The notes: generated by a model not told the origin, from the letters alone. 64,000 nucleotides of DNA from Halorubrum rubrum (GCF_024494685.1 NZ_JANHDM010000010.1:62001-126000), one strand, 5' to 3'; counted from the first letter of the stretch, positions 8,046 through 11,376 are shown. Program-made: numbers and translations.

Positions 8046-8858
8046 TCACTCCCGAGTCGCTGACGACTCCTGAACCACCGCAGAGAGCGGAACGGCTTGC
8101 TCCGTGAGCGTTTCGAATCGCTCGTCGACCCACTGGACGACCGTCTCGTCCGTGGATTCGAACACGCAGCGCGGGTTGTTGTGCTCGTCGTAGGCGACCA
8201 CGCAGGCGACGTCGTCGTATCGGAAGAGCCCGTACTCGATGGGGTCGGAAGAGACGGACACCGTCGTGTTCCCGTCGGACAGGGCTCGATCGGTCGCGGG
8301 TCCGAACTCCGCGAGCGACGTCTCCAACACCTCCCGATCGATGATCAACTCGATCTCCGCGCCCGCGTCGAGCGCGGCCCCGGCCGCCTCGTTGTACTGG
8401 CTCGTGACGATCGGCGAAACGGCCCTAACGTCGGATCCGCGCCACGTCCGGATCAGTTCCACGACCCGGTCGAGCGCGGCAAGCGGGTCGCGGTCGGTCG
8501 CCGCGGTGAGATCGCCCGTTTCGAGCCCGGCGGCGGGGAAGTCCGCGCCCGCTCGCTCCAGATCGGCCGCGAATCGCCCGTACCGGTCGGCGCGGTCGAT
8601 CTCGGAGAGCAGGTCCTCGTAGGCGCCGTGGACGCGCTCGCCCGTCGGCGTCACGTGGTAGGCACCGTCGCGTTTGACGACCCACCGCCGCTCGCGGAAT
8701 CCCGCCAGGATGCGCTGGACGGTGGTCCTGGTCGCGTCGACCGCGTCGGTCAGGGCGGCCGGACGCCGCGGTTTCCGGTCGAGCGCCCGGAGGATCGCGA
8801 TCCGTACCGTCGATCCGGCGAGGTACTGCGCGTCATCGTGCCCGCTATCGGACGCCAT
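8046..8858 (-). CDS. Helix-turn-helix transcriptional regulator with FilR1-like C-terminal domain
   Basis: A 270-residue regulator. Residues 10-75 form a winged helix (AGSTVRIAILRALDRKPRR, then LTDAVDATRTTVQRILAGF and a wing with DGAYHVTPTGERV). Residues 120-260 match the pattern of the domain after FilR1-type archaeal regulators: VRAVSPIVTSQYNEAAG, AEIELIIDREVLE, and YGLFRYDDVACVVAYDE. Such proteins are common haloarchaeal regulators of unknown ligand. It is divergent from the 43-residue peptide gene; a TATA-like GGTTATGAC lies about 28-36 bp upstream of its ATG. It may regulate the peptide/CHAT patch. Confidence 0.85.
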   Translation of the reverse strand: MASDSGHDDAQYLAGSTVRIAILRALDRKPRRPAALTDAVDATRTTVQRILAGFRERRWVVKRDGAYHVTPTGERVHGAYEDLLSEIDRADRYGRFAADLERAGADFPAAGLETGDLTAATDRDPLAALDRVVELIRTWRGSDVRAVSPIVTSQYNEAAGAALDAGAEIELIIDREVLETSLAEFGPATDRALSDGNTTVSVSSDPIEYGLFRYDDVACVVAYDEHNNPRCVFESTDETVVQWVDERFETLTEQAVPLSAVVQESSATRE

Positions 8859-8993
8859 CGTCTTCGTGGACGTATGGCCACCCGCGTCATAACCGTGTCG
8901 TCGGGACGGACCCGTCGCCGTCGCGATCCGAACCGCGACTCCGGCGGGAAGGCCTCGGGCGGCCGGGGCTCCGCAGGAGCGGTCCGACCTATT

Positions 8994-9020
8994 TGTTTCA
9001 ACTAATATTCAATTCAAACA
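8994..9020. promoter_or_regulatory. Imperfect palindrome in AT-rich control region (operator candidate)
   Basis: TGTTTCAA (8994-9001) and TTCAAACA (9013-9020) form an inverted repeat with 7 of 8 matches and an 11-bp spacer containing TAATATT. It sits about 30 bp upstream of the TATA box of the 43-residue peptide gene, inside about 90 bp that is clearly AT-rich compared with the GC-rich surroundings. A dimeric winged-helix protein such as the divergent regulator could bind here; this is inference. Confidence 0.45.
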
Positions 9021-9052
9021 TCCGGAACGTACCACTTCGCATAAGACTAGAA

Positions 9053-9060
9053 CTTAATCT
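9053..9060 (+). promoter_or_regulatory. TATA box of the 43-residue peptide gene
   Basis: CTTAATCT lies 21-28 bp before the ATG at 9081. This is the distance expected for a leaderless haloarchaeal transcript. The bases between it and the ATG contain no strong ribosome-binding site. Confidence 0.5.
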
Positions 9061-9080
9061 CACGCGCATTCTGGTGTAAT

Positions 9081-9212
9081 ATGCCCGAAAGTGTTGCGGC
9101 ATACCTGGCAGAGCACCCGAAGATGACCGGCGTCCTGTTCACCGCCATGCTGCTGTTGACGCAGGCGGCCCCCGCAGCGGCGAACGTGGCACAGGCCAAC
9201 CCCGGCCCGTAA
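9081..9212 (+). CDS. 43-residue hydrophobic small protein (DUF7503-like)
   Basis: ATG 9081 to TAA 9210-9212 encodes 43 residues: a polar start (MPESVAAYLAEHPKM), a hydrophobic segment at about 16-36 (GVLFTAMLLLTQAAPAAA) and the tail NVAQANPGP. I recall a haloarchaeal family of about 45 residues with the same YLxxHPKMxGVLFT...GP pattern, probably catalogued as DUF7503, but could not check. It could be a single-span membrane peptide or a secreted peptide cleaved after the Ala run. Its stop lies 13 bp from the stop of the convergent CHAT gene, and it has its own TATA box. Confidence 0.75.
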   Translation: MPESVAAYLAEHPKMTGVLFTAMLLLTQAAPAAANVAQANPGP

Positions 9213-9225
9213 GCGGAGAGACGGC

Positions 9226-11376
9226 TCAAAGCGGAAGCAGTTCGTCGCTCCAGTGGAGTTCACCGTCGTAGAACACGGGGACCGTTTCGAGCTGAAGCAG
9301 ACTGGTTAGTTGCTCGGAGTCGATCCCCTCTATTCTCGCGTCGGTCGGAACGGCATAGTTATCCGAAACGTCCTCGATCGTCGGGCTGTACATCGTACCC
9401 ACCCCGTACGGCCCGTTCGGGTACGCCGACATCGTGAAGTCCAACGCGGAGCCGTTCGACTCGATGTCGATGACGGCCGCGATCCCGCTCCGGCTCTGGC
9501 AGATCGTGGTCGCGCCGTCGCCGACGACGATGTACTGGTGGCCGGTGAGCAGCTCCCGTTTCGCGACGTGGAGGGCGGTCCGGAGGTTGAATCCGCTGTT
9601 CATCAGCCGGGCGACGATCCGGCCGAGCTTCGTCGCCGGGGAGTTCGCGACGTCGCTGAGCGTGACGATCCCGCCGCGGCTCCCGCGGTGGATCAGCGCC
9701 TCACCCTGCTCGTATGACTGACAGGCGTTGAGGAGGAACGCGCTGACGCTGACTCGGAGGTCCTCCTGGGTGAGATCCAGGTAGTCGTCGGTACACTGCA
9801 TCCCTCGGTCGTCGACGTGGCCGATGTAGTGGAGGAAGTCCACGTCCGAGGCGAGCGCCTCCCGCATCTCCGCGCGGGAGAGGTCGTGGCGCACCTCGAT
9901 GTCGAACTGGACCATGTCGCGGAGCCCGTAGAGGTCCGAGACCTTCCCCTCCTCGCGCATCTGCTCGTCGTTACAGACGACGAGCACCGAGATGCGCGAC
10001 TGCTCGACGCTCCCCGTCTCCAGCCGCCGGCGGTAGGCGTCGAGCGTCGCCTTGTTGGCGTCGAGGGGGACCCCGTCGCCGACCCAGGCGTGCTCGACCG
10101 TCTCGACCGGCTCGGGCCGAACGAAGTCGGCGGACCCGAGCGCGGCTCCGGGCTCGCTCGGGGCGTCCGTTCCGCGGGGGTCCGCGCCGCGAGGATCGGA
10201 GACGCCTGGGGCGTCCGCGGTTCCGGCGGCCGCCCCGTCGACGCCCGTCCCGCCGCGGACGAGCGTCCCCGGCTCCGGCTCCGGCGCGCGGAGGAACCCG
10301 ATCCCGCCGCCGGGGCCGGTGTCGGCCGGCGTGGCCGTCTCCGGCGACCGGACGATCGAGAGCTCCCCGGCCACGAAGGGGAGCGACTCGACGTTTCCCG
10401 GATCCGGCCGTACGTCGGTGGTGAGCGTCCACTGCGGAAGCTCCGGTTCGACCCGTTCGAACGGCACCTCGAGGTACGTCCCGAGCCGCTCGGCGAGCGG
10501 GGCCTGATAGAGCGCGGCCCAGTCGAGGTCGGCCGCCGTCGTCTCCCGCTCGTACAGGTCGACCGGGTAGAACCCCTCCGTCCGGGCGATACAGTCGAAG
10601 TGGAACGACTGCCGGAGCGCCTCCGCGGCCCGCCGTTCCACGTCCGGCTCGAGCGAGTGCTCCCAGCCGTCCCCCTCGATCCGCGCGGCGGAACCCGGAA
10701 CGACCTCGGCCGCGAAGTAGTACGCGAGCGGGACGACGGGGTAGAGCGCCCGGTAGGTCGGCGGGACAACGATCCGCACGCCGCTTCCGGGACGGTCGAT
10801 CCGGTCGGGAACGCGGAGCTCCTCGCCCGGTTCGATGAGGGGCGGGTGCCCGCGAAGCGTCGGAAACGAGCGCTCCGGGCTCGTCGTCTGGAGCGCCGAC
10901 CCCAGAAGCGAGACCGCTCGCATCAGCGACTCGGGTTCCGTCGGCGTCGTGATCGTTCCCGCCGGGCGCTGGTGGAGCGACCGGAACCCGAGCGTCACGT
11001 CCGTCGACCCCTGGAGGTCGATCCGAGTGGTTCGATCCGTCGTCGTGACCGTGAAGCCGGACTCGAAGTACAGATACAGCTTCGTCGGTGCGGGGTTGAC
11101 CCCGAGGTGGTACTCCTCGGCCGGCATCTCGAGGTCGTCCCCGCGGGCGAGAAGGGTCCCGTCGCTGGATCGAGTCTCGACCACCGCGATCCGCGGGACC
11201 TCGATCGAGCCGGTCTCGACGGTCACGCTCGCGTCGACCGGGAAGTAGTGGTTCTCGACCGCGGAGGGGCGTGGATCGACCTGCCGATCGGTGTAGAGTT
11301 CGAACTGGGTGTTCTCGATGTGGTCCGTGACCGTGAGACCGGGCGCGTCACACAGCGGGTCGATGTCGATGCTCAT
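9226..11376 (-). CDS. CHAT-domain (caspase-like cysteine peptidase) protein
   Basis: A 716-residue protein with no signal peptide. Residues 1-330 are an uncharacterised beta-rich domain with aromatic and acidic motifs (AEEYHLGVNPAPTKLYLYF, VVPPTYRALYPVVPLAYYF). Residues 335-425 are a Gly/Pro/Asp-rich linker. The C-terminal CHAT domain has the caspase-clan dyad: His520 in DFLHYIGHV and Cys552 in LLNACQSYEQG, followed by RGSRGGIVTLSDV. After it, residues 590-716 contain LLTGHQYIVVGDG and a further unrecognised region. CHAT proteins are peptidases in stress, death and defence systems. It converges with the 43-residue peptide gene. Substrate and trigger are unknown. Confidence 0.88.
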   Translation of the reverse strand: MSIDIDPLCDAPGLTVTDHIENTQFELYTDRQVDPRPSAVENHYFPVDASVTVETGSIEVPRIAVVETRSSDGTLLARGDDLEMPAEEYHLGVNPAPTKLYLYFESGFTVTTTDRTTRIDLQGSTDVTLGFRSLHQRPAGTITTPTEPESLMRAVSLLGSALQTTSPERSFPTLRGHPPLIEPGEELRVPDRIDRPGSGVRIVVPPTYRALYPVVPLAYYFAAEVVPGSAARIEGDGWEHSLEPDVERRAAEALRQSFHFDCIARTEGFYPVDLYERETTAADLDWAALYQAPLAERLGTYLEVPFERVEPELPQWTLTTDVRPDPGNVESLPFVAGELSIVRSPETATPADTGPGGGIGFLRAPEPEPGTLVRGGTGVDGAAAGTADAPGVSDPRGADPRGTDAPSEPGAALGSADFVRPEPVETVEHAWVGDGVPLDANKATLDAYRRRLETGSVEQSRISVLVVCNDEQMREEGKVSDLYGLRDMVQFDIEVRHDLSRAEMREALASDVDFLHYIGHVDDRGMQCTDDYLDLTQEDLRVSVSAFLLNACQSYEQGEALIHRGSRGGIVTLSDVANSPATKLGRIVARLMNSGFNLRTALHVAKRELLTGHQYIVVGDGATTICQSRSGIAAVIDIESNGSALDFTMSAYPNGPYGVGTMYSPTIEDVSDNYAVPTDARIEGIDSEQLTSLLQLETVPVFYDGELHWSDELLPL

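Follow-up and report, generated by a model that had tools for sequence, protein, structure and literature searches.

Why should the gene for a large caspase-like protein and the gene for a 43-residue hydrophobic peptide run towards each other and end 13 bp apart in a salt-loving archaeon? The pair lies in a 64,000-nucleotide stretch of Halorubrum rubrum DNA (GCF_024494685.1 NZ_JANHDM010000010.1:62001-126000; hereafter the window), for which a preliminary description had joined a 716-aa CHAT protease, the peptide and a FilR1-type regulator into one possible module. The analysis reported here, all of it resting on sequence and predicted structure, shows that a protease gene set tail to tail with a tiny partner gene, whose product usually ends in Gly-Pro, is carried by most salt-loving archaea and is a conserved, undescribed system; correlated substitutions in the two proteins point to recognition of the partner's ending by the protease. 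The gene coordinates of the preliminary description, its 13-bp distance between stop codons and its divergent placing of the peptide gene and the FilR1 gene were exact (Table 1).

The window peptide is a member of Pfam family PF24335 (DUF7503; 72.1 bits, E 2.7e-20, above the curated cut-off of 27 bits), a family of no known function that was detected in 166 of 194 Halobacteria genomes (~86%), and relatives of the CHAT-like protein were detected in 179 of the 194. In a neighbour set of 100 peptide loci with ~5 kb on each side, to which the window locus was added, a CHAT-like gene was convergent within 270 bp of the peptide gene at 98 of 101 loci across the class Halobacteria; at the other three it was convergent at 998 bp, on the same strand at 1365 bp, or absent from the stretch. 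The linkage of the two genes, on which the preliminary description had made its pairing depend, is far beyond chance. When loci were selected by the CHAT gene instead, a convergent partner was present for 78 of 85 from named genomes (76 facing DUF7503, two facing another small Gly-Pro-ending frame and seven facing none), in a set that shares species with the peptide-selected one and is not an independent sample of it. Partner class was set by rule (a hidden Markov model match, or ending plus spacing), and a few of the ‘other Gly-Pro’ frames may be chance, just as a few of the CHATs scored as facing none may have partners that fall outside the rule, such as the divergent frames noticed by eye at L216 and L218. 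A second, partnerless CHAT gene was seen near a CHAT-partner pair at L102, L118, L122, L139, L148 and L159, and relatives also occur on large haloarchaeal plasmids (25 plasmid records, e.g. NZ_CP085330.1), where the annotation is nearly always hypothetical protein.

The most constant part of the peptide is its end, with a Gly-Pro C-terminus at 97 of 101 peptide loci. Each of the four Gly codons, the four Pro codons and the three stop codons is in use at these endings, and selection therefore acts on the Gly-Pro end at the protein level; a constraint on the DNA was rejected for the same reason. Gly-Pro closes a C-terminal tag of variable sequence and near-fixed length, which follows a hydrophobic helix with the conserved core GVLFTxxLLLxQA. 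The helix is preceded by a conserved [HN]P[RK] motif, and the Arg or Lys ahead of it is present in 192 of 195 DUF7503 peptides with a recognised anchor and stands 27–31 residues from the C-terminus (exactly 29 in 141).

Inspection of CHAT relatives without DUF7503 for alternative partners revealed that they often face a different small protein that carries the same ending. One CHAT clade faces a small soluble protein ending in [KR][VI]STYGGP or close variants (...KRVSTYGGP). TYGGP followed by a stop occurs exactly once per genome in 10 of 10 genomes, adjoining the CHAT gene wherever the coordinates of the latter are known, and the idea that Gly-Pro tags many substrates generally is therefore not supported for this clade. 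A third kind of partner is found in one genus, whose convergent gene codes for 13-aa units in tandem (e.g. ADGNGGGISGPMN), 4 to ~14 of them depending on the species, with ISGP closing the last one at the stop; these repeats diverge more in DNA than in protein, which would be expected if selection acts on the repeat. STYGGP-facing and repeat-facing CHATs each form one single clade on the tree. A Pfam scan of the non-DUF7503 partners gave no family or a weak DUF7503 match, and neither the STYGGP nor the repeat partners have a hydrophobic segment by eye. The STYGGP partners have a basic residue upstream of the tag, and the repeat partners have one in their N-terminal part. The reading of the peptide as a membrane effector, offered in the preliminary description, is weakened as a general one because the helix is dispensable where soluble partners bear the same Gly-Pro ending; the other two readings given there, a precursor that is cleaved and an activator of the peptidase, both stay as candidates.

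The covariation of the two proteins centres on residue 174 of the CHAT-like protein, a Leu in the window. Seven DUF7503 partners of the initial set lacked the Gly-Pro end, and residue 174 was His or Phe in four of their CHATs; among the Gly-Pro DUF7503 pairs of that set it was Leu in 182 of 184 and never His or Phe. A reverse search, in which 391 genomes of the class were scanned for His174 and Phe174 versions of the PT-L-RGHPP motif, returned six unseen CHATs, five with a DUF7503-like partner (0/5 ending in Gly-Pro) and a sixth for which no partner was found. Overall, Leu174 occurs in 200 of 204 Gly-Pro pairs and His or Phe174 in 9 of 12 non-Gly-Pro pairs, making this residue the most associated with the Gly-Pro ending among 692 columns (Fisher p = 6e-11, 223 partnered CHATs), followed by residues 180 and 99, both in the N-terminal domain. 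Because Fisher tests ignore kinship, changes were also counted on the tree, where the non-Gly-Pro endings form four clades and all five inferred independent Leu-to-His/Phe174 changes fall within these clades, which amount to 6.65% of tree length (product probability 1.3e-6, post hoc for the column). By mutual information between tag and CHAT (effective 144 sequences), the top pairs were tag position -4 with residues 270 and 171, which adjoin the conserved RTEG and PTLRGHPP motifs; as evidence for contact these pairs are supportive only. The covariation supports a direct contact between the CHAT-like protein and its partner. Among CHAT relatives outside Halobacteria (family f18; L208–L211, from four genomes of the same phylum), no Gly-Pro partner was found, and three of these proteins have Phe at the aligned residue.

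The 716-aa protein scored 14.7 bits against Pfam PF12770 CHAT, below the curated cut-off of 24, and only 4 of 70 relatives reached E 0.01. The AlphaFold2 model, built with 70 relatives (mean predicted local distance difference test score, pLDDT, 87), matched gingipain R (RgpB; Z 19.4), separase (17.2), SAVED-CHAT (16.5), the anti-sigma factor DdvA (16.4), the Craspase tetratricopeptide repeat (TPR)-CHAT protein (~14) and caspases (~10). The ‘CHAT protease’ of the preliminary description is thus sub-threshold by Pfam and clear in its caspase/gingipain/separase fold, and we use the name CHAT-like because the caspase-type fold is evident in spite of the family score. The protein is modelled as a clan CD caspase-fold type with a His-Cys dyad, and peptidase activity is predicted; His520 and Cys552, already named as the catalytic pair, are invariant in the 223 partnered relatives, as is Glu476. 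Within the peptidase domain Glu476 comes after the first strand, as does Asp163, the S1 residue of RgpB (PMC4357240); this equivalence is drawn from position rather than superposition, and an acidic residue there suggests a basic P1. Residue 574 was considered for the S1 role and dropped, being non-acidic in most members. The stretch between the two domains is poorly defined (pLDDT < 50 at residues 360–412; gap-rich at 361–420 across 98 relatives), while the N-terminal domain modelled alone reached a pLDDT of 94.4. A search of the PDB by sequence gave no match, and Pfam and NCBIfam searches for functional names gave DUF7503 and the sub-threshold CHAT only. A distant CHAT paralogue (L207, L212, L213, L217; in the window's own genome at G000:C3 near 47057, with relatives) keeps a PTLRG[HY]PP, RTEG-like N-domain motif, lacks the aligned catalytic His and Cys as well as a Gly-Pro partner, and is likely a dead homologue.

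We consider it rather probable that the module consists of a cytosolic caspase-fold peptidase and a tag-bearing partner that docks on its N-terminal domain, with a probable cut after a basic residue. Reading of the ending by this domain is the simplest account of both the covariation and the exchange of tag carriers. The last residues of the partner, usually Gly-Pro, would serve as the tag and would dock at the PTLRGHPP/RTEG region, and docking would control where or when the peptidase acts. Speculatively, most partners may hold the peptidase at the membrane through their hydrophobic helix; in one clade a small soluble partner would take the place of the helix-bearing one, and in one genus many tandem tags might cluster several peptidase molecules. 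The peptidase would then probably cut after a basic residue, as the placing of Glu476 by analogy with RgpB suggests, and the partner itself, with its conserved Arg or Lys upstream of the tag, is a first, speculative candidate for the substrate. A wider proposal, to which we come close to giving even weight without quite doing so, is of a family of tag-reading caspase-like peptidases for which the C-terminal endings of dedicated partners form a recognition code, with interchangeable membrane, soluble and multi-tag scaffolds and with paralogous pairs insulated by differences in the tag.

Several observations weigh against docking of the tag on the N-terminal domain. Column 174 was picked after a scan of 692 columns, and the pre-set reverse search contributes, besides its 5/5, only two new independent changes (chance ~0.004). 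Three non-Gly-Pro pairs retain Leu174, and residue 174 is therefore not the sole determinant; the partners of these CHATs (L128, L198 and L319) end GTVT, GTID and STIG. No partner was found for 22 of 228 close CHAT relatives (~10%), some of which are second CHATs beside a pair. The N-terminal domain alone gave background-level structural matches only, to a beta-supersandwich over residues 1–138. In the repeat partners the Gly-Pro copies are mostly internal, and a free C-terminus therefore cannot be required for all. The sole role of the Arg or Lys ahead of the helix may be to orient the peptide in the membrane; should this orientation put the tag outside the cell, docking on a cytosolic peptidase would need another arrangement.

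The partner could instead be a regulator only, that is, an anchor, an activator or a securin-like pseudo-substrate inhibitor that is never cut, with the real substrates elsewhere. This we regard as a serious possibility that falls somewhat short of persuading us: the helix can be replaced by soluble or repeated carriers, so that no cut site is common to all partners, the repeats suggest multivalency, and the catalytically dead paralogues retain the N-domain motif, but against it stands the basic residue upstream of the tag, shared by 192 of 195 DUF7503 peptides and the STYGGP partners and, in their N-terminal part, by the repeat partners. If, on the other hand, the hydrophobic part were a signal peptide and a short Gly-Pro-ending peptide were released outside as a pheromone, the conserved helix, an AxA-like motif before the tag and a variable tag of near-fixed length would all fit; the STYGGP and repeat partners, which have no hydrophobic segment by eye, and a CHAT protein without an evident signal sequence make such a signal unlikely.

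An improbable alternative, on a similar footing, is a toxin-antitoxin or abortive infection system in which a membrane-disrupting peptide is released or controlled by the peptidase, or is regulated by the overlapping convergent transcript. A small hydrophobic peptide, convergent genes with overlapping or adjacent stops, and CHAT peptidases that act in defence elsewhere (Craspase, SAVED-CHAT) are in keeping with it. Soluble partners exist, however, the module is present in ~86% of genomes, and the covariation is at the level of protein and not of antisense RNA; moreover, PADLOC defence models returned 0 families at E up to 1 and phage records gave no match. A conserved neighbourhood and a shared terminator could be all that links the two genes, with no contact between their products; this would fit the short intergenic spaces, but spacing ranges from overlap to >200 bp, the flanking genes vary, and both the replacement of partners by others with the same ending and the covariation would be left unexplained; we give this very little credence. 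Docking of a tag-bearing partner on the N-terminal domain is the reading that we prefer.

Table 1. Features of the locus, in window coordinates
Feature	Coordinates	Strand	Basis or remark
FilR1-type winged-helix regulator	8046..8858	-	Pfam FilR1_middle E 7.3e-30; also HVO_A0261_N match
Promoter region of peptide gene	9000..9080	+	TATA-like CTTAATC at 9053-9059
Partner peptide gene, DUF7503 (PF24335), 43 aa	9081..9212	+	Pfam match
His-Pro-Lys (residues 12-14), [HN]P[RK] motif before helix; candidate cleavage site, P1 = Lys14	9114..9122	+	Conservation of basic residue
Hydrophobic helix (residues 15-34)	9123..9182	+	Sequence; conserved core
C-terminal tag NVAQANPGP	9183..9209	+	Variable sequence, near-fixed length, Gly-Pro end
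Gap between stop codons of convergent genes, 13 bp	9213..9225	no strand	Coordinates
CHAT-like caspase-fold peptidase gene (predicted), 716 aa	9226..11376	-	AlphaFold2 model, structural matches
Caspase-like peptidase domain (residues 428-627)	9496..10095	-	Gingipain, separase, SAVED-CHAT and Craspase matches
Catalytic Cys552	9721..9723	-	Invariant in 223 partnered relatives
Catalytic His520	9817..9819	-	Invariant in 223 partnered relatives
Glu476, predicted S1 residue for basic P1	9949..9951	-	Invariant in 223 partnered relatives
Low-confidence, gap-rich stretch between domains (residues 346-427)	10096..10341	-	Model, alignment
N-terminal domain (residues 1-345), putative tag reader	10342..11376	-	Model; columns 174, 180 and 99 lie here
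Loop residues 168-180, ERSFPTLRGHPPL	10837..10875	-	Leu174 (10855-10857) covaries with partner C-terminus

Among the neighbouring genes, the FilR1 regulator formed a five-member cluster in the 101 loci, comprising all four Halorubrum loci and one other, and was rejected as a part of the module, being a Halorubrum-specific neighbour; of the three parts first grouped together, the CHAT-like protein and the peptide are a real, class-wide pair. The peptide gene does have a TATA-like element of its own, as had been proposed, and this CTTAATC upstream of its ATG is conserved between Halorubrum species. DUF7504 proteins are a recurrent neighbour: in a 33-member cluster (L063, 2232–2981 relative to the peptide end, is an example) most of the genes sit just upstream of the CHAT gene and run the same way, and one member was identified by Pfam. 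Receiver/HalX-type response regulators stand upstream of the peptide gene on the same strand at L063, L084, L089, L095, L096, L099, L113 and other loci, one of them being confirmed by Pfam.

In the literature searched, which took in few subscription journals, no publication describing the module was found, nor any account of the CHAT linkage, the tag or the replacement of tag carriers, and a conserved peptidase-partner module present in most sampled Halobacteria genomes appears to be undescribed. The TPR-CHAT protein of Craspase (Csx29) resembles the window protein in being a CHAT peptidase of caspase fold that has its own protein partner, the substrate Csx30, and is a useful analogue because Csx29 binds Csx30 even if cleavage is blocked, and does so without being allosterically activated, the bound protein being held partly away from the cut loop (PMC10028731). 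However, the TPR-CHAT matches of the full model cover only residues ~211–624, and the N-terminal domain, which has no clear match alone, is modelled as a beta-sandwich with an alpha/beta part in which TPRs are not evident; the partner in the window, unlike Csx30, bears a C-terminal tag and is convergently encoded. No clustered regularly interspaced short palindromic repeats (CRISPR) or type III-E effector family was noticed among the recurrent neighbours, in which no search aimed at them was made. SAVED-CHAT (PDB 8TL0) shares the CHAT peptidase domain, whereas no SAVED domain was recognised by Pfam in the window protein, for which we infer a peptide tag and not a cyclic nucleotide as the regulator. 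RgpB and separase offer the closest peptidase-domain folds and, in RgpB, an acidic residue near the position of Glu476, but the window protein has no evident secretion signal or cohesin link, and has instead its own N-terminal domain and a small partner dedicated to it. The covariation offers a concrete hypothesis, centred on a single residue, for the recognition of a partner by a caspase-like enzyme.

A final comparison concerns Haloferax volcanii, whose extracts are reported to contain a caspase-like activity, resembling caspase-4, for which no gene homologue was found (PMC3615174). DUF7503 occurs in this species, which served as a control in the genome search. A link between the CHAT-like family and the H. 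volcanii activity is only a hypothesis, and the caspase-4-like character of the latter differs from the Arg/Lys P1 preference predicted for the family; even so, the family is a candidate for this orphan activity, and the pair offers an archaeal system, amenable to genetics, for the study of regulated proteolysis.

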